Origin: a virus
Virus record (IMG/VR): IMGVR_UViG_3300035698_005771
Coordinates: 1-20,533 of that record
Length of the DNA: 20,533 nucleotides
Direction: 5' to 3' (one strand)
Positions 1-20,329 of this stretch are shown in pieces. The position numbers and the translations under genes were made by a program. Numbering within the stretch: position 1 is the first letter of the stretch; every line of letters starts with the position of its first letter. A model generated the notes under the pieces. It was given only the letters and a program-made list of their open reading frames with translations. It was not told the origin of the DNA and ran no database searches.

Positions 1-1778
1 CTTAATAATTCTTGATCTATTACTTGAACGAAGGTTCTGAGACTATCCTCGTCTCCTAACAAGCCTCCGTTTACATTAATGGTTACATTTCCACCTATTC
101 CACCACCAGAGTCATCTAAGGGGACTACAGCCTCATCCATACCGCCTTCACCGATTGTCGCATTAATTCCACCTGGTGTTGCTCTTACGATTCCACCATC
201 CTCCATTTTAGGCCCTTGAATCGCGGTTGCAGCAATAGCAGCTACATTTGTATAACCAGCCGCGTAAGTTGCAGCTTGCAGTGGTGGGCCTCCGACAATA
301 AGTGCTTTAGATGCAGCAAGGTTTGTATTTACAATTGCTCCAGCAAGCGCAGCGGCTTTTTGCAGTATAAAAGATATTTTTGATTCTCTTCCAGCAATCG
401 CCGAAACAAGGTTGGCCGTGCTACTCAGCATTGTAACTCTCATTGTTGACCATGCTCTTTCGTTTTGGAGTCGTTGGGTTTGAGTTAATAGGTCTTGTTT
501 AGTTACAATATCATTATGTTTTTTTTCAACCATTGCTTCTTTTTTGAGCAATAATTCTCTTTGTTTTATTTTATTCTTTTCTGCACCAATTTCTTGATTA
601 ATTGCGGCTATTTGTGCGGCATATTTTTGATCTGTCATGGCCTGTTGATGTACGGCTTGACGTAATAACTCTTCTTCATTTGTTGCTTCAAGGGTTGCTA
701 TTTTTGTCTCTAAATCAAGTGCAGCGGCTTCTGCGTCTTTTTGTCTTTTTGTTTCTCTTGCCTGTGCGTCTTGTGCATCTTCTCTTGCCTGTGCAGTTTT
801 TTGCATCTCCAATATATTATCAATATGTGCCTGCAAATCAACCCTATCTTGGTTTAATACCGACTTTGACACCATGCCGCCCATACTTACTTTTGTAATA
901 TATTTTGGTAAGGTTGCCAACTCGGTTTGCATTGCCTTTAATCGTTCAGTTATTTTTTTAACCGAGTTTGAAGAACCATCAGCTTGTTTTTCTATATTAG
1001 TCTGTAAAAAATTGCCAATATCTTCAATTTGTTTCATTACTAAATTAGCAACTAATAAAATCCCTTTAAATGCTGGTATAAGATAGGTTCCTACTGCAAT
1101 TGCGGCATTAGTCATTCCTGTTTTAAATTGTGCCCACATATCGACAACGGAATCGCCCGTCTCGCCGGCTGCTTTCACGTTGGCATTTCCTAACGCTATT
1201 GCTTTATTAATAAAGGCTTGTTTTCTTTCCGCTTCACTTAATGATTCAACCGTTCTGTTTAAACTTCTAGCATATTCGGCTTGTGCTTTTTCTGCATTAA
1301 TTACGATACCTAGATTGTCTAACATTAACTTAGAACCACGACCCAAACCAGTTACAATGGAATTGAGCATAAATTCCATACTTTGACCGGTTGCCTTTGC
1401 GGATGATCTAGCGATATTTAACATATCACCAAATTTTTCAACTGGTAGACCTAAAAGCATAGCTTGATTGGCCTGCTTCATTAAATCCATATCGGAAATA
1501 GTGCCTTTGGACAACTTTTTCATTTGGGCAAGCATTGCTTCTGAATCCTCGCCTTGTGATCTTGCCATATTTCTAAAAGCTGCCTCGACTTCTTTGAATT
1601 TACCAGCTTCTAATGCTAGTTTACCTATGGCCGCCGTAACTACACCGACTAAAGCAGCGACTACAGTCAAACCAAGAGCGGCTTTTTTAATTGCAGCAAA
1701 ACCCTTCTTAACGGCTGATAATGATTTCGTCCCTACTGTCTTTATTTTTAATAGAAGTGTGGCTTCTTCTTTTGCCAT
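1..1778 (-). CDS. Tail tape measure protein (partial, 3' end beyond window)
   Basis: This reading frame is open from an ATG at 1778 to the left edge, giving 592 residues with no stop. It sets tail length and is expected to enter or contact the host envelope during DNA delivery. The N-terminus is basic and amphipathic, followed by a hydrophobic stretch at about residues 33-52 (LGLTVVAALVGVV). A long Ala/Gln/Glu/Lys-rich coiled-coil region covers about residues 320-435. A small-residue-rich segment follows, then the tape-measure C-terminal signature near residues 523-545 (EDGGIVRATPGG, then GEGGMDEAVVPL). That signature suggests only a short part is missing. Its ATG directly follows the stop of the frameshifted chaperone (TAAATG), the standard chaperone-to-tape-measure order of siphoviruses. 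At roughly 0.15 nm per residue the tail would be around 90 nm long; this is an inference. Confidence 0.93.
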   Translation of the reverse strand, partial: MAKEEATLLLKIKTVGTKSLSAVKKGFAAIKKAALGLTVVAALVGVVTAAIGKLALEAGKFKEVEAAFRNMARSQGEDSEAMLAQMKKLSKGTISDMDLMKQANQAMLLGLPVEKFGDMLNIARSSAKATGQSMEFMLNSIVTGLGRGSKLMLDNLGIVINAEKAQAEYARSLNRTVESLSEAERKQAFINKAIALGNANVKAAGETGDSVVDMWAQFKTGMTNAAIAVGTYLIPAFKGILLVANLVMKQIEDIGNFLQTNIEKQADGSSNSVKKITERLKAMQTELATLPKYITKVSMGGMVSKSVLNQDRVDLQAHIDNILEMQKTAQAREDAQDAQARETKRQKDAEAAALDLETKIATLEATNEEELLRQAVHQQAMTDQKYAAQIAAINQEIGAEKNKIKQRELLLKKEAMVEKKHNDIVTKQDLLTQTQRLQNERAWSTMRVTMLSSTANLVSAIAGRESKISFILQKAAALAGAIVNTNLAASKALIVGGPPLQAATYAAGYTNVAAIAATAIQGPKMEDGGIVRATPGGINATIGEGGMDEAVVPLDDSGGGIGGNVTINVNGGLLGDEDSLRTFVQVIDQELL

Positions 1779-2338
1779 TTAAACCTTCCTTAGTTTCTTG
1801 GCTTGATCTGCTTCTCTTTTAATACCGTTGTTTAAAACCAGAATATTAAATTGTAATTCATCAATATCTAGTTTTAAAACTTCACTTGGTAATTGTCCAT
1901 ACCTCTTGCAAATATGGTCTATATCTTCGGCATGTTTTTTTGCAACTTTATAAGTTTGCGCAGTTTTTTTTTACCGTAAGTAAAATTTATTATCTCACTA
2001 TATAGCAATTCTGGTAGAATCGGATTATGGAATATGTCATCAACAAAAATCTGTTCACCACAATCCTTATTTCTTGTCAATATGGGTTTTACAACCCCTG
2101 CCATAAAGACATCTCTATAATGTTCTTTAACTTTATTGATTGACTTAACAGCATCCGGCTCTTTACCAGTTTTATAATTTTCATAAGTTCCAAGCATTAC
2201 TTTTGACCCATTAAGGTAATCTAAGATATCAATCTTTTTAATGTGAAATAAAACACCCTCAATTTTTACCTTGAGAGTGCCTTGTAATACATCTTTAATA
2301 TCTTTACCAAAAAGTAGTTGCTTGAATCTTTTAAACAT
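1779..2338 (-). CDS. Tail assembly chaperone, G-T fusion made by -1 frameshift
   Basis: If ribosomes slip back one base on the A9 run (1972 to 1964), the first 125 residues of the G-like product join a 61-residue extension that ends in TAA at 1781-1779, immediately before the tape measure ATG. The extension begins TAQTYKVAKK and contains CKRYGQLPSEVLKLDIDEL, which resembles the C-terminal domain of phage tail chaperones (KRYG.LPSEVL followed by a D/E-rich helix). The total is 186 residues. In lambda, G and G-T act in a fixed ratio and the T part recruits tail tube protein to the tape measure; the same role is inferred here. The evidence is the open -1 frame filling exactly the gap between the G stop and the tape measure start, plus the slippery run. 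Slippage itself cannot be shown from sequence. Confidence 0.8.
1919..2338 (-). CDS. Tail assembly chaperone, G-like product (unshifted)
   Basis: This 139-residue protein sits between the tail tube and tape measure genes, where siphoviruses encode the chaperone that coats the tape measure during tube assembly. I place the start at the ATG at 2338 (MFKRFKQLLFG), overlapping the end of the tail tube gene by 8 bases. The frame is open further upstream to a GTG at 2389, but that would extend deep into the tail tube gene and has no ribosome binding site; the chosen ATG also lacks a strong one, so coupling is likely. The C-terminus passes through a run of nine A, giving GKKK, and ends 14 residues later. 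I recognise the family by position and by the frameshift signal rather than by residue motifs. See the frameshifted product for the longer form. Confidence 0.8.
   Translation of the reverse strand: MFKRFKQLLFGKDIKDVLQGTLKVKIEGVLFHIKKIDILDYLNGSKVMLGTYENYKTGKEPDAVKSINKVKEHYRDVFMAGVVKPILTRNKDCGEQIFVDDIFHNPILPELLYSEIINFTYGKKKLRKLIKLQKNMPKI
1964..1972 (-). promoter_or_regulatory. Programmed -1 ribosomal frameshift slippery site
   Basis: On the coding strand the site reads GGT AAA AAA AAA CTG, a run of nine A that contains A AAA AAA in the phase needed for tandem P- and A-site slippage to -1. After the slip the next codon is ACT at 1964-1962. Four bases downstream a small stem can form (1959-1952 with 1948-1942, GCAAACTT / AAGTTGC, one bulged A, loop ATA), which may stimulate slippage. 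The hairpin is weak, so the A-run is the main evidence. A homopolymer this long can also be a sequencing-error hotspot, but here the gene arrangement makes sense with the run exactly as written. Confidence 0.8.
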
Positions 2339-3380
2339 ATGTTGCCGTGTCGTTAGTAAGTACCGTTTGCAATGCATAACCACCGGCACTTGAGCAATCT
2401 TGTAACACTTGAAAGGTTACTTCGCTAGTTAGTATTTCGTCCGGTCCTCCTATCTCTGGGTCTCCGGCATCTGATACATATATCTTAGGCATATTAAATT
2501 TAAGACCTTTTTGAACTGCGGAGCCTGTAATCGTACTTCCTAAGAAGTCTAATTGTGCAGATAGTTGAGTCCCGGCTACCATAGCATCAAAAGAAGTGGT
2601 TGTGTCGAATCTAACCGTTGCGGTAAATGTAAAAGATGCAATCCCGACCGGTAGCACGTCAAGCGTATCACTTCCAATTCGTCTCGATTCACTATCACCT
2701 TTAAGATTATTGTTTACGGCTAAATTTGCGGCTTGTATGTGCCAATATGCTGTGCTGGTAATTGCTGCGAATGTGCTATCAATACTTAACCTTCCACCAA
2801 CAAAGTTTAGAACCTCTGCACAAGCAAGGGTTAAACCACTCTCAACATCATTAGAGGAGGTTGATAAATCAATTCCCATAAATGATACATTTGTTTTTAA
2901 TGCCTCATCTATTTCAGTACTAAACCCGATTTCTCCGACCCTTAACCCGTCATATTCAAATATTTTACCAGTAGTTGCAGGCCCTTTTCTAATATTCATC
3001 GAAAGGCTGGTATATGAATTATCCATATTGCCAATTTCAAAAGTATGTTCAAAGGCAAGGCCACCAATAGTCTCGCCCGTTGCGGTTGCGCTTGTAATTG
3101 ACCCACCCATTGCATTTTCTAATATAAAGGCATGAGCATCAACATCCGGACGGAAATAATATTCAAGTTCCCCCTCAATTACTTTACCGGTCGGGATTCT
3201 TCCGTTATATGTGCGGCTTCTTGATAATTCTTCTAATATCTTACCTTCTTTAGTAAGTTTCATGTTTGCACTAATACAATCAATTGCCGAAGTACAAGTC
3301 ACATGTGTCCCTAAAGCCTTTTCACGGCCAATTGCTACATAACTCTCTGTACTTACTAACGCTCCTTGTCCTATACTCAT
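2331..3380 (-). CDS. Major tail tube protein
   Basis: This 349-residue protein lies just upstream of the chaperone and tape measure genes and has the composition of a tail tube subunit: Gly/Ser/Thr-rich beta strands and few cysteines. It starts MSIGQGALVSTESYVAIGRE and includes the tube-like passage LEYYFRPDVDAHAFILENAM near residues 72-91. It should polymerise into the hollow tube through which DNA passes. The length is typical of a tube subunit, possibly with an added surface domain. The ATG at 3380 follows GGGGGA with about 6 bases of spacing. No contractile sheath gene lies next to it, which supports a siphovirus tail. The family call rests on gene order and general character, so the subfamily is uncertain. 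Confidence 0.82.
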   Translation of the reverse strand: MSIGQGALVSTESYVAIGREKALGTHVTCTSAIDCISANMKLTKEGKILEELSRSRTYNGRIPTGKVIEGELEYYFRPDVDAHAFILENAMGGSITSATATGETIGGLAFEHTFEIGNMDNSYTSLSMNIRKGPATTGKIFEYDGLRVGEIGFSTEIDEALKTNVSFMGIDLSTSSNDVESGLTLACAEVLNFVGGRLSIDSTFAAITSTAYWHIQAANLAVNNNLKGDSESRRIGSDTLDVLPVGIASFTFTATVRFDTTTSFDAMVAGTQLSAQLDFLGSTITGSAVQKGLKFNMPKIYVSDAGDPEIGGPDEILTSEVTFQVLQDCSSAGGYALQTVLTNDTATYV

Positions 3381-3391
3381 TTTAAATCCCC

Positions 3392-4375
3392 CTAAACGGT
3401 TCTTAAGAAATTATAAGTATGTTGTTTACTTACACACTCAATATTATTATTAATAATCATTAGCCTTTTTTGTATATCGGCTTTTTCTAAAATCATTTTC
3501 TTTATAGTCTTGCTATGTCCTGTATTATAATTATATATCATTTGCTCTTTTAAATCACCCGTATATTTAGATGATAAAATACTATTTTTGGTACAATTAA
3601 CCACTGGAAGGTTAAACGCTGCAATATAGGTGTATAACCACTTAGCAGAAAAAAATAAATTAGTTGAAGTGTAACAATCATCCCCTGCAATATCTCTTAT
3701 ATACTCATGACGCATATAATTATCTTTACCATCACCCAAATCATCAAAAGAGTAATATTTTCCATCTCTCCAACAATAATCATATCCAATTAATAGAATT
3801 TTATCATATCCAAAATAATTACGAGGCTTTTCATTGTCACATTGAGTTAAAAAAACCACCATTTCGTTACTAACATTCGTTGCCGCCGCCACTATATTTT
3901 TACAGCCACTTATCGAACTAAATTCTTTTTCTGATTCAATTACATCCTTATTTACAAAGAAATATACATCTTTCCAATTGCCTTGCTTTGTCCATTCAGG
4001 GTTGCCACATACATTCATAAATAATGTTGTGTTTTTAAGCTTGTCTTTCCACGGCTTGAGGTATTTCTCATAAGACACGTTGGCATCACATACCATTACA
4101 TAAGTGGGAATGATCCCGTTGTCTAAACAGTGGCCTAATACCTTATCACATACTAATACATCAACTTTTTTCTGTTGTTTTTTAATTACTTCTAAATTTT
4201 CTTGAAATGATCGTCCATTTGCTATGCATAAAATAGCTTTGCCAAGTCCGGAAGCGGTAAAGTCTTTTAAATCTTTCATCTCATATTTAGAATGGTTCGT
4301 CGCATGTTCACGCCATTGCTTACACCATTGATTATAGGCTGATTTACTTTGACTTAATACTTCCTCGTGATTCAT
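3392..4375 (-). CDS. DUF115 / Maf-like protein (MptE-related fold, possible glycan-modifying enzyme)
   Basis: This 327-residue protein matches the DUF115 pattern shared by archaeal MptE (6-hydroxymethylpterin pyrophosphokinase) and bacterial Maf motility accessory factors implicated in flagellin glycosylation. Visible elements are a nucleotide-binding-like turn at residues 50-56 (CIANGRS), the strand-loop pair around residues 71-98 (VDVLVCDKVL, then GIIPTYVMVCDA), a central LLIGYDYCWRDGKYY at about 194-208, and the C-terminal VVNCTKNSILSS near 258-269. These are the spacing and motifs expected of the family. It sits between tail-completion genes and the tail tube gene, an odd place for an enzyme, and starts with a good binding site (AGGGAG, then TAAGC, then ATG). 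It might modify the virion or host glycans, perhaps using sugars from the upstream dehydrogenase and epimerase; that link is inference. Exact activity is unknown. Confidence 0.75.
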   Translation of the reverse strand: MNHEEVLSQSKSAYNQWCKQWREHATNHSKYEMKDLKDFTASGLGKAILCIANGRSFQENLEVIKKQQKKVDVLVCDKVLGHCLDNGIIPTYVMVCDANVSYEKYLKPWKDKLKNTTLFMNVCGNPEWTKQGNWKDVYFFVNKDVIESEKEFSSISGCKNIVAAATNVSNEMVVFLTQCDNEKPRNYFGYDKILLIGYDYCWRDGKYYSFDDLGDGKDNYMRHEYIRDIAGDDCYTSTNLFFSAKWLYTYIAAFNLPVVNCTKNSILSSKYTGDLKEQMIYNYNTGHSKTIKKMILEKADIQKRLMIINNNIECVSKQHTYNFLRTV

Positions 4376-4387
4376 GCTTACTCCCTA

Positions 4388-4600
4388 TTAGGTTCGCTTG
4401 TATTTTGTGAATATAAGCTCGTTTTCGTATAATCCGAGATCCATCACATCATTCCACACCCCATTAAAGGATGAGAAATATTGTAAGGCCCCGTACTTAT
4501 CGATTCTATAGAGATAATTGTCTGATATTGTTTCATAAACGTCAACCGTTCCTAGTTGATGCAGATAATACAATTTTACCTTTCTTCTTTTTGGTTTCAT
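4388..4600 (-). CDS. Hypothetical 70-residue protein
   Basis: I do not recognise this protein. It is rich in Tyr and basic residues (MKPKRRKVKLYYLHQLGTV) and has no membrane segment or cysteine motif. Its ATG overlaps the stop of the upstream gene as TAATG, a strong sign of coupled translation, and it ends 12 bases before the DUF115 gene. Its place at the head-tail joining genes suggests a small structural or assembly protein, but nothing in the sequence proves it. Confidence 0.7.
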   Translation of the reverse strand: MKPKRRKVKLYYLHQLGTVDVYETISDNYLYRIDKYGALQYFSSFNGVWNDVMDLGLYENELIFTKYKRT

Positions 4601-5103
4601 TAATAATTTACCTTTACTTCAAAGTCCATAATAGCAACTCTGTAATGTGTTTGCTCGTCAAGACTTAAGTTATGATATGTTATACCCGTGGGTTTCTGTG
4701 TTAATACAGTACCCTCTAAAGTGTCATTAGCTCTTAATATTAGCTCGATATTTTCCATTAATTTCTCAACATCATCATCGGCGGCATCTTCTTGAAATGA
4801 ATCAACCGTGCTATTCCAGAACATACCAGCTATTTTAAACGATATATTTGATTGTCTCATTCCGTTTAACTGATTCTTGCATATTGTCTTTAATTCAACA
4901 TCCTTACTATCAAGCCATATTGTTATGCATGGAATGATTGATGCTTGCATTGAAAATAAGTTTGGATTAAGCTTTAATACTTGGTTTATTCTAGTTGTTA
5001 AGCCATTTGACAGATCAATGGGAGATCCAGCAACATTATTATTATTATCTAATATCTCTTTTATTTTGCTCTTAATTCCATCTATGTCTATGACTGATCC
5101 CAT
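4600..5103 (-). CDS. Probable tail terminator / neck protein (Mu gp37-like position)
   Basis: This 167-residue protein follows the Mu G-like gene, where a tail terminator or gp37-like neck protein normally lies. It starts MGSVIDIDGIKSKIKEIL, with a helix first, then a mixed strand region (ASIIPCITIWLDSKD, about residues 54-68) and a C-terminal strand (HYRVAIMDFEVKVNY) typical of terminator-like folds. The ATG at 5103 follows AGGAAATAAG. Such proteins cap the finished tail tube and join it to the head. The assignment is by gene order and overall strand pattern; I cannot see a defining motif. A minor tail protein is the main alternative. Confidence 0.6.
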   Translation of the reverse strand: MGSVIDIDGIKSKIKEILDNNNNVAGSPIDLSNGLTTRINQVLKLNPNLFSMQASIIPCITIWLDSKDVELKTICKNQLNGMRQSNISFKIAGMFWNSTVDSFQEDAADDDVEKLMENIELILRANDTLEGTVLTQKPTGITYHNLSLDEQTHYRVAIMDFEVKVNY

Positions 5104-9221: not shown

Positions 9222-9280
9222 TAAACACCCTTGCTTTGTTGTTCGCATGATCCAGGTGCATCTATTAATTTACTTGTCAT
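9221..9280 (-). CDS. Coupled micro-ORF, 19 residues
   Basis: This short frame reads MTSKLIDAPGSCEQQSKGV. Its ATG overlaps the stop of the beta-helix gene as ATGA, and its own TAA overlaps the next ATG as TAATG. GGGGA lies 6 bases before the start, so all initiation signals are present. It could be a real micropeptide, or a leader that controls translation of the downstream membrane protein. The peptide has one Cys and no membrane segment, and I recognise no family. Confidence 0.5.
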   Translation of the reverse strand: MTSKLIDAPGSCEQQSKGV

Positions 9281-12051
9281 TCAAAATCCCCATTAGTATC
9301 AAACCCATCAAATCTTTGCCCAACACTTATACCATTTACAAACTCATCCGCTTCTGGATCACTGTTATACATTGAATGATGACTATAATAGGTACATGTT
9401 TGACCGGCATCTGTCCCAAATGGGTTATTTGAAGCAGTACCACCGTTAAAAATATTAGATCCCCATATCTTAATAGGATTGATTACCCCACCATCGAAGT
9501 AAATGGCTGGATTAGTGGCATTTGATATTAATTTACTGTGTTTAATCTTAATTTTTGGTAATGCTGAATTAACTCTCAAACAATGATTATTTGCTGAATT
9601 ACCATTTATTACTGAATGGTCTATGTCAATTTCTGTATTTGCTGCACCATCTATTACGTTGACCCTTCCGTTTATCTCCGTGCCAGAATCTATAATTAAT
9701 GAACAATTAGTCCCGTCAACGTCGATATTTCCGTCAATATTTATCCCTTCAAGTCTTAACCTCGCATCATCATTTAATTCAAAGGCTGTAGAAGCTACTG
9801 CACCGTTAAGCTTATAGGTTGCATTGCCATCAAAAGTAACATCAATATCTTCAATAACTAAAGAAGATGGTAAAGACCAATCTTTTCTTAAATTTATTAC
9901 TGCGGCATCATCTGTTGGTGCTATGCCCCTCAAAGCATCGGCCGGAGATCCATACATATCATTATTTCCACCCACATACTTAATATTTCTTGTGTGCCTA
10001 AACGATCCCGTTTGACTAAGGCTATAAATACCAATTTTCATTGAATTACCAACAAACAAGGCACCACTAACCACATTTGTACCGGTTACGTCAATGTCAG
10101 AGCTTATAATATTTAAAAATTGGTTTGATGAAAATTCTACCTGATTATTCGGAGTACATGCCATTTTAAATGTTGGGTTAGCAACAGTAAAAAAGTCACT
10201 TCCGACGACTCTTACAACTCCGACTTGACCAGCACCGTTATTATCGCTTATTCTTACGGCTCCGCCAAATAACCCAACAACACTTGACTTAATAATACTA
10301 AAAAATCCGACGGCGGTTGTGGTTGCTATACCTTTAGATTCTAAAGTTACAATCCCATATACTACGCTTCCTTGCAGTGTTACGGTAGCATCTTCTGTTG
10401 ATACATATAGGCCACCAAGCACCGTAGATCCACCCTGTATATTGATGGTTGTTGAAATATTTCCAGTGCTGCTTACATTTACGGCCGCTAAATCGCAAGC
10501 CGAAGCACGAAAGCTAATAGCACTAGTTATAGTGCTGGTTGTTACCATTCCATTCGCAACACAACCTTTAAGGCTTAGATTGCCCCTAGTAATATCTATA
10601 CATCTAGTTCCAGGATCATCTGGAAGTGCTTTAAATGTTATATTACTGACTTCGGTTGATGTGAAGCTCGAATCAACACTTACGACGGTTGCTGATTGTC
10701 CAATTGTTACCAATGCCGACGAATCACCATCTAAGTTTACGCCACTTGTTAATACTATATTCTCTAAATACTCACCCGGACTAATTTTAACAACATCCCC
10801 AGCACTTCCACTATCAATCGCATCCTGAATAAGGTTAAATTCAGAAGATGTCCCAACAGGTCTTAAGCTTGTGGCCAAGTTTTGCGCTGGTGCATTATGT
10901 CCGCGAGCAAAGGTGTTATTCAATCCATAAAATAAGTATGTTGCTCCACCTAAATTATTAAAAATGCCATATGTTGGTTCTGTATTAGATGTATTATATA
11001 AAAATGCACAACTTATGACGGCTCCACTAGTGGCTTGAGCATCAACCCTGACACTATAATAATCAGTACCTAAATAATTGCCACCACCTTGAAAAACACA
11101 GTAATAAACTGCAAAAGATCCAGTACTTCCTGATACTGCGGCGTGACCAGTGGTATTGGTTACCGAACAGTTATTCGCAAACAAAGAAGCATCATTTGAA
11201 GTGGTTAATATCGGACTTGTTATAGATGTTCCACTTATATGGGTGTCATATGCATAGGTAGTGCCGCCCTCAATGCTTACAATCCCATCAATTATGCAAT
11301 TTAGAAAATATATAAGGTTAAATGCGCCCCCACCTATCTTTAAAATCTTATAAGTGTTGCCCGTTGAGTGTCTTAGATTACACCTTAGAAACATCATAAA
11401 GGTATTTTCTTCTATTGATATTTCGCTTCCATCGTCAAGATTACCAAAGAACGTACAGTCCCAAAACCTTATAAAATCAGTCATTAATGATGGTGATGCA
11501 ACACTCATGAGCCTATTTGTGGTTGTTGCCCTAATAGCACAGCCATAAAATGATATCCCAGTTGCTCCCCCATTTATGTCAACAACATCCCCGGCATTTT
11601 CGATAAAAACAGTTTCGGCCGAATCACCGATTATACTCATAAAGCTATTAGTAACCCCAGAAAAGGTTAATTGTTCGTCATAAACCCCGGGGCCTACTTT
11701 AATGACCCATTTTAATGTATTTGTAGGACTTTGAGTAATGGCATATGTAATGGCGGTTTGTATTGTGCTAAAAAATCGTGAATCTGTATTATCTGTGTAT
11801 GAAGGTGATACCCAACACGTCCTTGCTGGCACTAAACCATTAATTGCATCGGCATCAACACTGAAATCAATAGTATCAGTTGCGGCATTTCCAGTAATAT
11901 CAACGGAGCCATCTGAGCTGGTCATCGTTAGAGTATCTTCGGGACTATCTGCAACGGGTGAAGTTCCTAAATCAGTCTGAATTGTATCAAAGCTATTATA
12001 ATGATAAACAGCGTCGAATTTTCCCGTAAAAGGATTAAGATGATATCTCAA
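9277..12051 (-). CDS. Large beta-helix protein (pectate-lyase-like fold), probable virion fibre or spike
   Basis: At 924 residues this is the longest gene. After an N-terminal head piece (RYHLNPFTGKFDAVYHYNS) and a short repeat-like section, it becomes a right-handed parallel beta-helix of the pectate lyase/pectinesterase type. Entry segments recur: about residues 90-140 (FFSTIQTAITYA, then VIKVGPGVYDEQLTF), about 395-440 (FNLIQDAIDSG, then VVKISPGEYLENIVL) and about 705-770 (NLRKDWSLPSSLVIEDIDV). The remainder is Asn/Ser/Thr/Gly-rich rungs. Such folds form receptor-binding or glycan-cleaving spikes. It lies among head genes rather than tail-tip genes, so a head fibre is possible. The start is TTG at 12051, with GGAG (12060-12057) 5 bases before it. 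I see no clear catalytic residues. Confidence 0.75.
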   Translation of the reverse strand: MRYHLNPFTGKFDAVYHYNSFDTIQTDLGTSPVADSPEDTLTMTSSDGSVDITGNAATDTIDFSVDADAINGLVPARTCWVSPSYTDNTDSRFFSTIQTAITYAITQSPTNTLKWVIKVGPGVYDEQLTFSGVTNSFMSIIGDSAETVFIENAGDVVDINGGATGISFYGCAIRATTTNRLMSVASPSLMTDFIRFWDCTFFGNLDDGSEISIEENTFMMFLRCNLRHSTGNTYKILKIGGGAFNLIYFLNCIIDGIVSIEGGTTYAYDTHISGTSITSPILTTSNDASLFANNCSVTNTTGHAAVSGSTGSFAVYYCVFQGGGNYLGTDYYSVRVDAQATSGAVISCAFLYNTSNTEPTYGIFNNLGGATYLFYGLNNTFARGHNAPAQNLATSLRPVGTSSEFNLIQDAIDSGSAGDVVKISPGEYLENIVLTSGVNLDGDSSALVTIGQSATVVSVDSSFTSTEVSNITFKALPDDPGTRCIDITRGNLSLKGCVANGMVTTSTITSAISFRASACDLAAVNVSSTGNISTTINIQGGSTVLGGLYVSTEDATVTLQGSVVYGIVTLESKGIATTTAVGFFSIIKSSVVGLFGGAVRISDNNGAGQVGVVRVVGSDFFTVANPTFKMACTPNNQVEFSSNQFLNIISSDIDVTGTNVVSGALFVGNSMKIGIYSLSQTGSFRHTRNIKYVGGNNDMYGSPADALRGIAPTDDAAVINLRKDWSLPSSLVIEDIDVTFDGNATYKLNGAVASTAFELNDDARLRLEGINIDGNIDVDGTNCSLIIDSGTEINGRVNVIDGAANTEIDIDHSVINGNSANNHCLRVNSALPKIKIKHSKLISNATNPAIYFDGGVINPIKIWGSNIFNGGTASNNPFGTDAGQTCTYYSHHSMYNSDPEADEFVNGISVGQRFDGFDTNGDFE

Positions 12052-12278: not shown

Positions 12279-12453
12279 TATATTCGTTCCTTATTGCCTT
12301 ATCTAATTTTGATTCTATTCTGTCTAATCTATTGCATAACATCTCAAAAACGTCCTTATTAACAAAGCTCGAATTGATATATGCAAAACTAGTAAGTGAG
12401 TAGATTAATATAGTCACAACAATCGTCAAAAATAGTATTACATTCTTACTCAT
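12268..12453 (-). CDS. Small membrane protein with charged C-terminal helix, 61 residues
   Basis: The N-terminus is a membrane segment or uncleaved signal (NVILFLTIVVTILIYSLTSFAY, residues about 4-25). A predicted helix with heptad-like Leu/Ile spacing follows (FEMLCNRLDRIESKLDKAIR). The ATG overlaps the portal/F stop as ATGA. The layout of one N-terminal membrane helix plus an amphipathic charged helix recurs in the 41-residue protein at 17755-17880. Small phage proteins of this kind can be holin- or spanin-like, but neither is shown here. Confidence 0.65.
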   Translation of the reverse strand: MSKNVILFLTIVVTILIYSLTSFAYINSSFVNKDVFEMLCNRLDRIESKLDKAIRNEYNEL

Positions 12454-14627
12454 TTTTTACCAAACCCCTTGCCGGCTTTTTCATCTATAAACTGGTCTAA
12501 TGATGTGTCTTTAGGAAATCTTTTATCAGGTGTAAATTCTTCAAATATTGTTATTGGTATTAATACCGATCTGCAATTAAAATGCATTGGTGGAATTGGT
12601 TGCTCTCCTGCTTTAAACTTCTTACCATGTAATCCGCTGCATATTTCCGACGTTCTACCGTCTAGTATTGCGCTATATTGATAGCCATCTACGGCACCGG
12701 TTGACTCAAAGTAAGATACTCGACCCTTATTAAACATTTCAGTCGTTTTAGTTCGTGCATATCGGTCAATTGATACCTGCATTGCTCCTTTAATCTCTGT
12801 GCCTAATGTTGCTATTACACTCGACACTGGGCGACCGTCCTTAATAGCAGCAATTATCTCTAATCTGGTTTTTTGGTCTATTGCATACTTAAAATCGGCA
12901 ACATAATCAAATACTTCACTCTCTATTATTTCTAAGAAAGCGGCATCGGTTAAAGGCTCGGCAAAGTTGTTTTTTCTAACTTCATTCTGTGCAGTGACTA
13001 TACCCTCACCCCAAACGTCCTTAAGATTGCTTAGAATTATCTTATTTATCGCTTTTAAGCTGCTTACCTTGAGCTTATCTATCTTGGCAATATTTCCAGT
13101 TTCAATAATACGCTTCTTTCTTATTTGCTCACCCAAATCATCGAACATTAGATCAAGAATTACATTAGTTTGATTTACCACCTTATTAGTGGTGGATTCT
13201 AGTGTCGTATTAACCTTATTAAAATCAACTTTCTTGTGATAGTCGCCTTTTGGTGTCTTATAGGCATAATTTTGAGTGTTCTTTACTGGATCTTCTTTAT
13301 TTACCTCGTCTTGGTTTTCGGGTACTTCTTTTTTACCATCCATTTCGGGCTTGTCAGCGTCCCCAAATTGAGGAGGGACAAGTGCTTCGGCTTCTTCAAT
13401 TTCGCCTTGTGGGAAGTTTAAAATGGCTCTGAGGTGGTTTATTTCCTCGTCATTAGGTCTAAATATTCTACTCTTAACGGCTTCAATCCATAATCTGGCG
13501 TATTCCTTAACATCTTTTTGACCAATTTCTTTAAACTTAAATCTTGGTGGGAAGTCTATATCACCATAATTATATAATACTATTGGTTTAATAATTTCTT
13601 GGTTAATTAGTCTTTCAAGTACACCCTTTTTTCTTGCTATGTGTTTGAAAAAGATTTCCATCTGATTTTCACCTAATGAGAATGATCCCCCACTAGTCTC
13701 AGATCCAGAAAAGCCTAATAAGTCAGGCAATAGCAAAGATCGACCTATAAACATGTTAAACATATCTATGGCCTTACGAAATGCCTCGCCATTATTTCCC
13801 GATTCGAGAAATTCCAGGTCGATTCCCTTCGGAAATACTAAATTAGTCTTAGCTTGAAAAGATTTTAGGCATGAGCTTAATTCGTCGGCTGTGCCATCGG
13901 GTGCGTTGGCATCATATTTGGCCACTGGAATAGGTGATGCCGATTTCTCTAAGAATATACCTAAATATCTTATAATCTGTGTTTTAGTGAAATATGCTGC
14001 ATATGCTGGTCTTAAATCTGATTCGCCATATGGGTTTTGGAATCTTCTATTATTAATAAAGTGAATTATGCTTTTAGGATTGACATCAATGCTCTTATTA
14101 TAGACTCTTTGCTCATATTTAGTAATGTTACCCTTTGGATCTTGATGGAATAACCACGGACCCGGATGTCTGGTAATTAAATTACCTAATTCGATCTTAC
14201 CATCTAGCTTTTTGGCAAATATCTTCTCTGATATCGAGAATCCATACTCATAACCAGTAAGTATCTGCTCGATCATTTCATCAAATGAATATGGCAAATC
14301 GTTAATTAAATCTGATTCTATCTCTTGTGCCATTTCTTCTGTTGACTCATCTCCTGCACCTATTTCCCATCCAGAACCAAGAATTAAGTCCTTTTTGAGC
14401 TTCATTGATGAGCTCACTTGATCATCTTTCATCATCTCATCATATCGATCATATTCATTACGCTTGTATAAATCATCTGCATTATAAGGCTCTTCTTGAG
14501 AGTCATCATAATAAGAAGAAAGCCTTTCGGTCTTTTCTTGCATGTTTAAATACATTTTATCGATGGGGTTAGTCTTACTATAAGAACTAATATACCTTTT
14601 ATTCGGTCCTAAAACTGTGTTTGCCAA
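12450..14627 (-). CDS. Portal protein fused to Mu F-like head protein
   Basis: This 725-residue protein combines two functions that phage Mu encodes separately (gp29 and gpF). The N-terminal part (to about residue 410) is a DUF935/Mu gp29-type portal; visible parts include VSSSMKLKKDLILGSGWEIG, GYEYGFSISEKIF and SGSETSGGSFSLGENQ near residues 310-325. A low-complexity acidic linker (about 415-460) leads to the F-like domain, with its signature at the end: YARTKTTEMFNKGRVSYFES (623-642), LDGRTSEICSGLHGKKF (Cys663, His667) and PPMHFNCRS (His682, Cys685). The portal forms the DNA entry ring; F-like proteins are minor head components. The start is TTG at 14627, supported by GGGAG 7 bases upstream. 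The next in-frame ATG (14555) has no site. Confidence 0.9.
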   Translation of the reverse strand: MANTVLGPNKRYISSYSKTNPIDKMYLNMQEKTERLSSYYDDSQEEPYNADDLYKRNEYDRYDEMMKDDQVSSSMKLKKDLILGSGWEIGAGDESTEEMAQEIESDLINDLPYSFDEMIEQILTGYEYGFSISEKIFAKKLDGKIELGNLITRHPGPWLFHQDPKGNITKYEQRVYNKSIDVNPKSIIHFINNRRFQNPYGESDLRPAYAAYFTKTQIIRYLGIFLEKSASPIPVAKYDANAPDGTADELSSCLKSFQAKTNLVFPKGIDLEFLESGNNGEAFRKAIDMFNMFIGRSLLLPDLLGFSGSETSGGSFSLGENQMEIFFKHIARKKGVLERLINQEIIKPIVLYNYGDIDFPPRFKFKEIGQKDVKEYARLWIEAVKSRIFRPNDEEINHLRAILNFPQGEIEEAEALVPPQFGDADKPEMDGKKEVPENQDEVNKEDPVKNTQNYAYKTPKGDYHKKVDFNKVNTTLESTTNKVVNQTNVILDLMFDDLGEQIRKKRIIETGNIAKIDKLKVSSLKAINKIILSNLKDVWGEGIVTAQNEVRKNNFAEPLTDAAFLEIIESEVFDYVADFKYAIDQKTRLEIIAAIKDGRPVSSVIATLGTEIKGAMQVSIDRYARTKTTEMFNKGRVSYFESTGAVDGYQYSAILDGRTSEICSGLHGKKFKAGEQPIPPMHFNCRSVLIPITIFEEFTPDKRFPKDTSLDQFIDEKAGKGFGKK

Positions 14628-17768: not shown

Positions 17769-17880
17769 TTAGTTCCTCTATTCTCTTTAATACTCTTTCA
17801 AGCTCTGATTTATCTCTTAATAGGTCCATATATAATACACTTAAAATAAATAATGCAACGATAATTAATACTATAATCAT
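17755..17880 (-). CDS. Small membrane protein, 41 residues
   Basis: This short gene reads one N-terminal membrane helix (IIVLIIVALFILSVLY, residues 2-17) followed by a charged helix (RDKSELERVLKRIEELNEKD). Its ATG overlaps the dehydrogenase stop as ATGA, and it overlaps the ParB-like start by 14 bases. No family is recognised. Its layout resembles the 61-residue protein at 12268-12453. Confidence 0.6.
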   Translation of the reverse strand: MIIVLIIVALFILSVLYMDLLRDKSELERVLKRIEELNEKD

Positions 17881-18677
17881 TCTATTAACTCCTTGTCGTG
17901 CTTTCTATAAATATAAGTGTTGTCATTTGCAACGACATCAAACATAGATGAATAAGAGAAATTTGCAGTATATCCAACAAATGCATTTAAGTCTTTAGGT
18001 AAACACTTGCCGCCAAATCCCCTTAACTTATCAGGACCCGGGACTTGCGTGTGTTGGTCCATATTGAAAAAGTTAGTAATCCCCATTATCTGCTTAACCA
18101 TGTCAAATGAACATTCGTTCCTTTCGCATGCTTCTTTTATTATATTAAAATAGTTTACCTTTACTGCTGCAAAGCAATTGTGGGCATATTTACCCATAAA
18201 TGCCTCTTTATTAGATACGATGCTAAATTTCTTATTTGGGAATATATCCATAATGAGGCTAGATAATTCTATTATTAGCATGTTATCTTTGCCGCCTCCA
18301 AAAATCATTGGTAGTTTTTCCATATCATCGTTACACGTTTTTTCTGTTAAAAACTCAGGATTAGCATAAATACGTTTATTGTGCTTCTTTGCCATAATAT
18401 CACATACATCCGGCAATACTGTACTTCTAATAAATATTGGCACATCGGGACATATTCTAATAGATGCTTGTAAGTCCGTTAAGACTTGAGTGGTTACGCC
18501 TTCACCATCTTTTATGTTCATTACCGGGACACAAATGAAAACGGCTTTGGCTTCTTGTATAGATCCCCATAAGTCTTTATATGGATCATATTTTAGTAGT
18601 TCATGTTTTGTGTGGGTTTTAAACCATGTTGCTAATGTGCCTCCGACCATTCCAAGGCCTATAATTCCAATTTTCAT
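17877..18677 (-). CDS. UDP-sugar 6-dehydrogenase-like protein lacking the C-terminal domain
   Basis: This protein belongs to the UDP-glucose/GDP-mannose dehydrogenase family, which oxidises C6 of a nucleotide sugar to a uronic acid with NAD+. The nucleotide-binding loop is at residues 7-13 (GLGMVGG). The family motifs STVLP (85-89) and NPEFLTE (106-112) are present, as is the central helix MGKYAHNCFAAVKVNYFN (161-178), whose Lys and Asn are catalytic. So is the active-site loop GFGGKCLPKDL (220-230, catalytic Cys225). Usual members have 380-450 residues; this one stops at 266, about where the central domain ends, so the UDP-binding C-terminal domain is missing. There is no frameshift remnant, since the next gene starts at the overlap. 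It may be a genuinely short phage form. It overlaps the epimerase as ATGA. Confidence 0.85.
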   Translation of the reverse strand: MKIGIIGLGMVGGTLATWFKTHTKHELLKYDPYKDLWGSIQEAKAVFICVPVMNIKDGEGVTTQVLTDLQASIRICPDVPIFIRSTVLPDVCDIMAKKHNKRIYANPEFLTEKTCNDDMEKLPMIFGGGKDNMLIIELSSLIMDIFPNKKFSIVSNKEAFMGKYAHNCFAAVKVNYFNIIKEACERNECSFDMVKQIMGITNFFNMDQHTQVPGPDKLRGFGGKCLPKDLNAFVGYTANFSYSSMFDVVANDNTYIYRKHDKELIE

Positions 18678-19567
18678 ACATTCTCCTTAAACCAATTTAC
18701 ATATTTTTGTATACCTTCTTTAAACTTAAGTACAGGTTCATATCCAAAATCATTATTTATGTCAAATAGATCGGCTTTGGATTGTAAAATATCCCCACTT
18801 CTCGCATCCCTCATCGAATATCTTACCGGTAAAGTTCCCATCGCAATATTAATCATTTTACATGCATCCATTAATTCGGTTGATTCACCACACCCAACAT
18901 CATACACGCTATATTTACCAAGATTTTCTAAATTGTTAATAATTAATTTTATTGCGTGTATGACATTAGATACGTGAGTAAAATCTCTTGATATTTTACC
19001 ATTGCCATTTACTGTTGTTGGTGCTTTTCTGTGTATTAATTCAGTCCATTTCGGAATTGCTGCAATATTAGGCCCCATTGATTTTTGCCAAGGCCCAAAA
19101 ACGTTAAAGAATCTTAATCCAACTATGGGCATATTATATAATTCAGAGTATTGCTTTGCCATTTGTTCGTTTATTTGTTTAGAAAGCGCATATGGAGACA
19201 ACGGATTCCCATTATCCCCATACACTGAACTAGAAGACGCAAAAATGATTGGAGCATATTTGGGTTGTCTTCTAGCTATTTCTAATATATTTATAAAACT
19301 ATTAATATTATTGTCAAACACTTTCTTTGGATTTTCCATTGAATATGGTACGCATCCAGTGGCGGCAAGATGAATTATTAAATCATAGTCCCTATATGGT
19401 ACATACTTAGCGGCATCTTTCACTTCAATATCTTTCCAATCATAATATTTGTTCTTTATGTTGTGGTTTGATGCGTTATCAATAGCCGTTATTTTATGTT
19501 CACACTTTAAAGCATTGTATAAGTTGGAACCAATAAAGCCGGCGGCCCCTGTAAGTAGAATTTTCAT
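18674..19567 (-). CDS. NAD-dependent nucleotide-sugar 4-epimerase (WbpP/TviC-like)
   Basis: This 297-residue extended short-chain dehydrogenase has the NAD motif GAAGFIG (7-13), the strand IIHLAAT (64-70), a Ser cluster (ASSSSVYGD, 110-118) and the catalytic pair Tyr126/Lys130 (YALSK). Substrate-binding elements are LRFFNVFGPWQ (151-161), NIAAIPKW (167-174) and SRDFTHVSNV (193-202). The 'FGP.Q....AAIPKW' pattern is that of UDP-GlcNAc/GlcNAcA 4-epimerases such as WbpP and TviC. With the adjoining dehydrogenase it could convert a UDP-hexose to a UDP-uronic acid and epimerise it. It is slightly shorter than typical 310-340 residue members. The ATG overlaps the HTH gene stop as ATGA. Sugar specificity is inferred. 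Confidence 0.88.
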   Translation of the reverse strand: MKILLTGAAGFIGSNLYNALKCEHKITAIDNASNHNIKNKYYDWKDIEVKDAAKYVPYRDYDLIIHLAATGCVPYSMENPKKVFDNNINSFINILEIARRQPKYAPIIFASSSSVYGDNGNPLSPYALSKQINEQMAKQYSELYNMPIVGLRFFNVFGPWQKSMGPNIAAIPKWTELIHRKAPTTVNGNGKISRDFTHVSNVIHAIKLIINNLENLGKYSVYDVGCGESTELMDACKMINIAMGTLPVRYSMRDARSGDILQSKADLFDINNDFGYEPVLKFKEGIQKYVNWFKENV

Positions 19568-19812
19568 CTGTTCATTCTCCTTGCTTTTTTTACTTTTTCT
19601 TTATGATCTTCACTTCTTGATATTTCACTCATTTTTCTTGATGGTTCACATATATAAAGTCTTATTTCTTTTATTGTTGGGATGTCTAATCTATTTACCC
19701 AATTTGTCCATGTTCTTTTTGTTATGCCAATATCCAAACAAGCCCGTCCAATCTTTCCACTTGATCTTAATAACCCTTTTATCATGGCATCTTTTGTATA
19801 TTCATTATTCAT
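19564..19812 (-). CDS. Small helix-turn-helix DNA-binding protein
   Basis: An 82-residue protein with a Fis-like or terminase-small-subunit-like helix-turn-helix around residues 12-40 (LLRSSGKIGRACLDIGITKR, then TWTNWVNRLD). The pattern 'G.i..Ac...GIt..T...W' is common in phage DNA-binding proteins. The C-terminus is very basic (HKEKVKKARRMNR). The ATG lies within the last codons of the apt gene (8-base overlap), and the TGA overlaps the epimerase ATG. It may be a regulator of this accessory block, or a small terminase relative; I cannot tell which. Confidence 0.65.
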   Translation of the reverse strand: MNNEYTKDAMIKGLLRSSGKIGRACLDIGITKRTWTNWVNRLDIPTIKEIRLYICEPSRKMSEISRSEDHKEKVKKARRMNR

Positions 19813-20329
19813 ATTTAACCAGTGACTTTGCCTTTAGCCCGTTATATGAAAAGTCATTTAAAAATCTCAGGTCAATTACTGTTAATATATCCGTGATCTC
19901 ATACCCACCACGCTCGGCAATCTGACAAGACATTTCCAAGGTTCCACCAGTTGCTAAGACATCATCAATTATAACGGCTTTCTTTTTAGGTCGCTGATCC
20001 TTTGAATACATTTCTATTTTATATGAATCATATTCACTTTTTAATTCACCTTGTATTATTCTAGTATTTGGCTTTTTGGGCAATTTACCCTCTTTTCTAG
20101 TCAGTATTAGAGGTATTCTGCAATATTCTGCTAATGCAGAACCAAATATAAAGCCCCTTGCCTCAATTGCGATTATTGCTTGACAATTATCATAATCAAA
20201 TAATGCTCTTAAATCCCTTGTTACATTTCTTAATCCCTCTGGATCTTCAAGTAATGGGGTAATATCTTTGAACGATACCCCTTTAATGGGGTAATCTTTT
20301 ACTTCTTCTATTAGTTTTTTATAATTCAT
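19805..20329 (-). CDS. apt: Adenine phosphoribosyltransferase
   Basis: The enzyme makes AMP from adenine and PRPP in the cytoplasm. At 174 residues it has the usual length. It shows the family opening YPIKGVSFKDITPLLEDP (13-30) and the APRT-specific IEARGFIFGSALA (55-67). The PRPP-binding loop is AVIIDDVLATGGT (118-130). The flexible-loop region before it (RKEGKLPKKP, 78-87) is also typical. These motifs separate it from hypoxanthine or orotate transferases. It overlaps the HNH gene as ATGA. A phage copy would salvage host adenine, or counter a defence that releases adenine; the second idea is speculation. Confidence 0.9.
   Translation of the reverse strand: MNYKKLIEEVKDYPIKGVSFKDITPLLEDPEGLRNVTRDLRALFDYDNCQAIIAIEARGFIFGSALAEYCRIPLILTRKEGKLPKKPNTRIIQGELKSEYDSYKIEMYSKDQRPKKKAVIIDDVLATGGTLEMSCQIAERGGYEITDILTVIDLRFLNDFSYNGLKAKSLVKYE

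Follow-up and report, generated by a model that had tools for sequence, protein, structure and literature searches.

Maf enzymes transfer CMP-activated nonulosonic acids to Ser/Thr residues of flagellin and accept CMP-Neu5Ac and CMP-Kdo (PMC11339370). This glycosylation is cytoplasmic and takes place before assembly (PMC4065374). The enzymes consist of three domains, an N-terminal Rossmann-like domain, MAF_flag10 and a C-terminal helical bundle, the central one of which resembles CstII (PMC11339370). Among phages, virion glycosylation has been described for mycobacteriophages Che8, Corndog and Myrna (Freeman et al. 2023, cited in PMC12363180), where phage-encoded glycosyltransferases target capsid and tail tube proteins. 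The idea of phage tail glycosylation thus has a precedent, since tail tube proteins are among the glycosylated virion components (PMC12363180).

A DUF115 gene between tail genes

The window analysed here is the whole stretch of 20,533 nucleotides, a viral record of 20.5 kb outside any bacterial genome. An earlier note on this DNA had placed a complete DUF115 gene between tail-completion and tail tube genes, which was confirmed by an intact reading frame, a match to PF01973 and the identification of both flanks:

3..1778 (-): tape measure protein, truncated by the contig end
1919..2389 (-): gene in the tail-chaperone position, a downstream neighbour named from position only
2331..3380 (-): tail tube protein, Phage_tube_2 (PF18906, E=2.5e-19), downstream of DUF115; most likely acceptor
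3392..4375 (-): DUF115/PF01973 Maf-like protein, 327 aa from ATG to stop (ORF and Pfam); putative CMP-ulosonate:protein glycosyltransferase
4388..4600 (-): 70-aa ORF between terminator and DUF115, not seen in relatives
4600..5103 (-): tail-terminator-like protein (PHROG 'tail terminator', E=0.007), conserved upstream neighbour

PF01973 (Pfam) was matched over residues 24-204 of the protein (E=1.5e-14; 54.6 bits against a cut-off of 34.6) and by 28/28 sampled DUF115 relatives, while the NCBIfam model of PseD (flagellin modification) matched 24/28 members, the best at 3.8e-12. The AlphaFold2 model (pLDDT 85.9, pTM 0.84) predicts a core flanked by one helix at each end, spanning residues 3-28 and 287-326. 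The best PDB match of this model in Foldseek was Maf of Magnetospirillum (5mu5, E 4.2e-11, TMq 0.57), followed by archaeal MptE (8sd5, E 1e-5); the mammalian sialyltransferase 2wnf (prob 0.97) appeared among the weaker matches. Likewise, the DUF115 profile compared with PDB sequences gave 3.1e-5 for Maf 5mu5 and 0.22 for MptE. The kinship with Maf put forward in the earlier note was thus borne out by both profile and fold.

The phage protein shares with Maf/PseD the central MAF_flag10 domain (PF01973) and its fold, and is nearer to Maf than to MptE, a 6-hydroxymethyl-7,8-dihydropterin diphosphokinase of the same Pfam family, in profile as well as fold. However, the three-domain architecture was not found: the 327 aa hold the DUF115 domain and the terminal helices, with no N-terminal Rossmann-like domain, and for this reason the protein is regarded as minimal and not as a Maf orthologue. 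At the level of gene context, the phage and Maf/PseD systems have in common a PEP-dependent ulosonate synthase, a CMP-sugar synthetase and linkage to the gene of a polymer-forming protein, but the phage gene adjoins that of the tail tube instead of flagellin, and the phage synthase is often DAHP-synthase-like. The sialyltransferase match recalls the CstII-type enzymes (GT42), whereas a search of these genomes for PF06002 (CST-I/GT42), run without a positive control, gave no match.

Across 70 sequences, the invariant or near-invariant residues were N-G-x-S 53-56, D77, P90, D97, T166-N167-V168, G197 and D199. The conserved motifs align with the nucleotide-binding loops of Maf/PF01973, and judging from sequence their residues would line the putative active site:

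4208..4222 (-): codons 52-56 (ANGRS), counterpart of the Maf GPS nucleotide-binding loop; G54 and S56 invariant (70/70)
4085..4087 (-): codon 97 (Asp), in a PTYxxVCDA motif; invariant (70/70)
3866..3880 (-): codons 166-170 (TNVSN); T166, N167 and V168 invariant (70/70)
3770..3787 (-): codons 197-202 (GYDYCW); G197 and D199 invariant (70/70)

Conservation and place in the tail module

A profile search of viral contigs returned 74 DUF115 loci, in which gene order was read from a simple gene call. The order terminator-DUF115-tube was seen in every resolved locus, the first two genes being occasionally separated by a small ORF; deviations came from contig ends or, in GC-rich contigs, from antisense ORFs that the script had picked. 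The reverse search, starting from the tail tube, gave 69 loci, which share contigs with the first set and are not independent samples of it; DUF115 lay directly upstream in 67/67 loci with upstream DNA, the remaining two contigs starting at the tube gene. Contig L216 has its tail module in the opposite orientation with respect to the sugar cassette described below, yet DUF115 and tube remain together. DUF115 is consequently a core gene of the tail module in a clade of uncultured siphovirus-like phages. A chance insertion (moron) model was also considered and is ruled out by synteny.

The median pairwise identity of DUF115 (52%) lies between those of the tube (54%) and the capsid (50%), with the terminator at 41%. 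Three close pairs in which change could be measured gave a dN/dS of about 0.04-0.05 for DUF115, and the gene is under purifying selection. Its distance correlation was 0.32 with the tube, 0.28 with the terminator and 0.23 with the capsid; the higher values for its neighbours were not taken as proof, because linkage fits them too. No relatives of DUF115 (tblastn) or of the tail tube were found in an isolate collection of 50,697 phage records, and neither profile found relatives in 84,980 species genomes.

Some contigs carry a terminator gene lengthened to 470-550 aa by a C-terminal region (L004:3472-4902, L009:2571-4049, L010:8324-9982, and also L020, L021, L037, L052, L053, L056 and L077), directly upstream of DUF115 or one gene off. 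The added region is fn3 in L009, had no Pfam match in L004, and is possibly a surface domain. The tail tube at L134:723-1699, on the contig that also carries L079, is split over two frames, by a frameshift or an assembly error. Elsewhere in the window, a portal protein has a Mu F-like head morphogenesis domain fused to it (12450-14627; PF06074 and PF04233), and a 924-aa ORF with no Pfam match (9277-12051) lies between the portal and protease genes. In relatives its place is taken by unrelated proteins, some of them with collagen repeats (L037, L040) or rich in glycine (L058); the head module has a variable display slot here.

Sugar genes of the window and its relatives

The earlier note had pointed to a nucleotide-sugar pair as the company of DUF115. 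Both genes are present, on the strand of DUF115 and about 13.5 kb upstream of it:

17877..18677 (-): accessory sugar gene for a UDP-glucose/GDP-mannose dehydrogenase-like protein that has only the N-terminal and central domains
18674..19567 (-): accessory sugar gene for an NAD-dependent nucleotide-sugar epimerase

Co-occurrence of DUF115 with sugar genes, examined as that note had proposed, was borne out: the epimerase was found in 17/25 related records and the UDP-glucose dehydrogenase, above the cut-off, in 15/25, and a CMP-ulosonate cassette, the stronger link, was present in 21/21 contigs covering its place. The pair is therefore frequent but not universal, and it is not the key partner, since four genomes of 42-48 kb have DUF115 but neither gene by those models. 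The pair is also commoner in other phages (the epimerase in 326 records), and it was rejected as the main DUF115 partner on both counts. An APRT-like phosphoribosyltransferase gene upstream of the pair (window 19805-20329) is not among the recurrent genes of the relatives.

For the gene context, 23 long related contigs were compared with the window. The cassette directly follows the fibre genes, 7-9 kb from DUF115 and outside the window, and comprises a radical SAM/SPASM enzyme, a CTP_transf_3-GT2 fusion, a small helical protein, a PEP-dependent ulosonate synthase and a methyltransferase, the last with TPR repeats. All five genes were present in 21/21 long contigs covering that place, a count that leaves aside the window, G007 and G027, which end short of it; because the window contig ends inside the tape measure gene, its own cassette is deduced from the relatives. 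Likewise, a search from the CTP_transf_3-GT2 fusion gave the cassette in 30/30 loci, interrupted only by contig ends, with DUF115/tube present wherever the stretch extends that far. Maf depends on a CMP-ulosonate made by a NeuB/PseI-type synthase and a CMP-sugar synthetase of the same genome; as judged by homology, a synthase and CTP_transf_3 accompany DUF115 in 21/21 relatives covering the place.

The CTP_transf_3 half of the fusion gave KdsB-like matches and its GT2 half matched polysaccharide glycosyltransferases. The synthase belongs to the DAHP-synthase family (NF006421, 1.5e-80) or the NeuB family (TIGR03569, 1.1e-24), and because it is nearest DAHP synthase, not KdsA or NeuB, in 14/24 compared genomes, the sugar is uncertain. 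Classical DAHP synthases have KPRT in the substrate loop. The DAHP-synthase-like proteins instead carry R-A-G-T there, without variation among 12 sequences, a hint that their aldose substrate is another one.

The radical SAM/SPASM enzyme is the first cassette gene in 21/21 contigs (e.g. L136:1622-2590, L151:17124-18080). The small cassette protein (L136:4334-4708 and 18 others; 113-155 aa) is all-helical and conserved; neither Pfam nor NCBIfam gave a match, and no PDB fold matched significantly. Both NeuB-like and DAHP-synthase-like genes occur in G009 and G019 (L142, L170), whereas in the other genomes this slot contains only one of the two.

Among the 50,697 isolate phage records, DAHP-synthase-like proteins were found in 13, several of which look like bacterial contamination, NeuB in 1 and the CTP_transf_3-GT2 fusion at full length in 0. 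Several isolate records labelled as Listeria or Staphylococcus phage, such as OR848333 and OR849944, carry DAHP synthase and epimerase genes on small contigs and look like bacterial contamination. The KdtA and KpsC/S transferase families were absent from 21 related records, and DUF115 was the only recognised candidate CMP-sugar transferase found.

Proposed pathway, alternatives and meaning

Counterparts of a synthase, an activating enzyme and a transferase are all present in the phage set, and we conclude that DUF115 most likely attaches an ulosonic acid to a tail protein. On balance we favour a phage-encoded Maf-like pathway that probably acts on a tail protein in the cytoplasm. The synthase, NeuB-like or DAHP-synthase-like, would join PEP and an aldose to give a 3-deoxy-ulosonic acid, which the cytidylyltransferase half of the fusion would activate with CTP to the CMP-ulosonate. 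While tails are being assembled in the host cytoplasm, DUF115 would then move the ulosonic acid from CMP to Ser/Thr of the tail protein. Extension or trimming of the glycan may fall to the GT2 domain and the methyltransferase, and to the UDP-sugar genes in genomes that have them. The most likely acceptor is the tail tube, favoured solely as the product of the adjacent gene; its Ser/Thr richness is undistinctive (S+T 20.5%, against 20.4% for HTA and 21.6% for DIT9). It is tentatively possible, with an expectation slightly short of even, that this constitutes a self-contained flagellin-style O-glycosylation system in which tail-tube glycosylation is a built-in and perhaps essential assembly step, as for flagella.

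Some results count against the pathway. Besides the ordinary Ser/Thr content of the tube and the nearness of many synthases to DAHP synthase, DUF115 sequence did not specifically track synthase type (identity within minus between types 1.1 points, p 0.05), and TerL, T6, tube and CTPt track it more than DUF115 does; a strict match to the donor might produce such tracking.

The alternative that survives best, though unlikely, is that DUF115 and the cassette alter a glycan of the host surface, LPS core or capsule, and thereby block superinfection, tube adjacency reflecting late co-expression only. Ulosonic acids such as Kdo occur as LPS and capsule sugars, surface-converting enzymes are frequent in phages, and the polysaccharide matches of the GT2 half would fit. 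However, moron genes move, whereas DUF115 strictly adjoins the tube in all contigs; transferases of the KdtA and KpsC/S type are missing, and the nearest fold with a known acceptor is a flagellin glycosyltransferase.

It is also rather improbable that DUF115 has lost transfer catalysis and now serves tail assembly as a structural protein or chaperone. A single, universal copy at a fixed morphogenetic position, conserved like tube and capsid, would be expected of such a protein, but the motif residues of the nucleotide-binding loops do not vary in any of the 70 sequences, and every genome covering the place of the sugar cassette has it.

There is a small chance that the two sets of genes act separately, DUF115 glycosylating tail proteins without the cassette product while the cassette and its GT2 decorate the tail fibres. 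The position of the cassette next to the fibre genes, 7-9 kb from DUF115, and the lack of specific co-variation with synthase type agree with this division; against it, CMP-ulosonates are used by Maf-type enzymes (PMC11339370) and no second recognised CMP-sugar transferase was found. Finally, it is very improbable that the protein is a pterin diphosphokinase of the MptE kind or another nucleotide enzyme, for although PF01973 is so named in Pfam and MptE ranks second by fold, Maf is clearly nearer, the NCBIfam match is PseD, and folate or pterin genes were absent from the recurrent clusters.

With the Maf-like pathway as the preferred reading, we infer catalysis by DUF115, its donor and acceptor, and a benefit to the phage. 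As in Che8, Corndog and Myrna, a phage-encoded glycosyltransferase, here a putative one, would act on a virion protein; unlike those systems, this DUF115 is unmatched in the 50,697 phage records and the phage appears to make its own CMP-activated sugar. No paper dealing with a DUF115 or MptE-like protein of a phage tail turned up in the open literature, most subscription journals lying outside this scope. What is new here is a Maf-like enzyme with its own CMP-sugar supply that is universal in a clade.

In combination, the data suggest that this large group of uncultured bacterial viruses sugar-coats its own tails. If this is true, phage genes now labelled 'pterin diphosphokinase MptE-like' would merit renaming, the 327-aa protein would offer a minimal Maf domain for studying Ser/Thr acceptor choice by this enzyme class, and the DAHP-synthase-like enzyme may yield a new ulosonic acid. 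Virion glycosylation would then be a core trait of a wide environmental phage group, not a peculiarity of some isolates, and would rest on the same chemistry with which bacteria modify their flagella.
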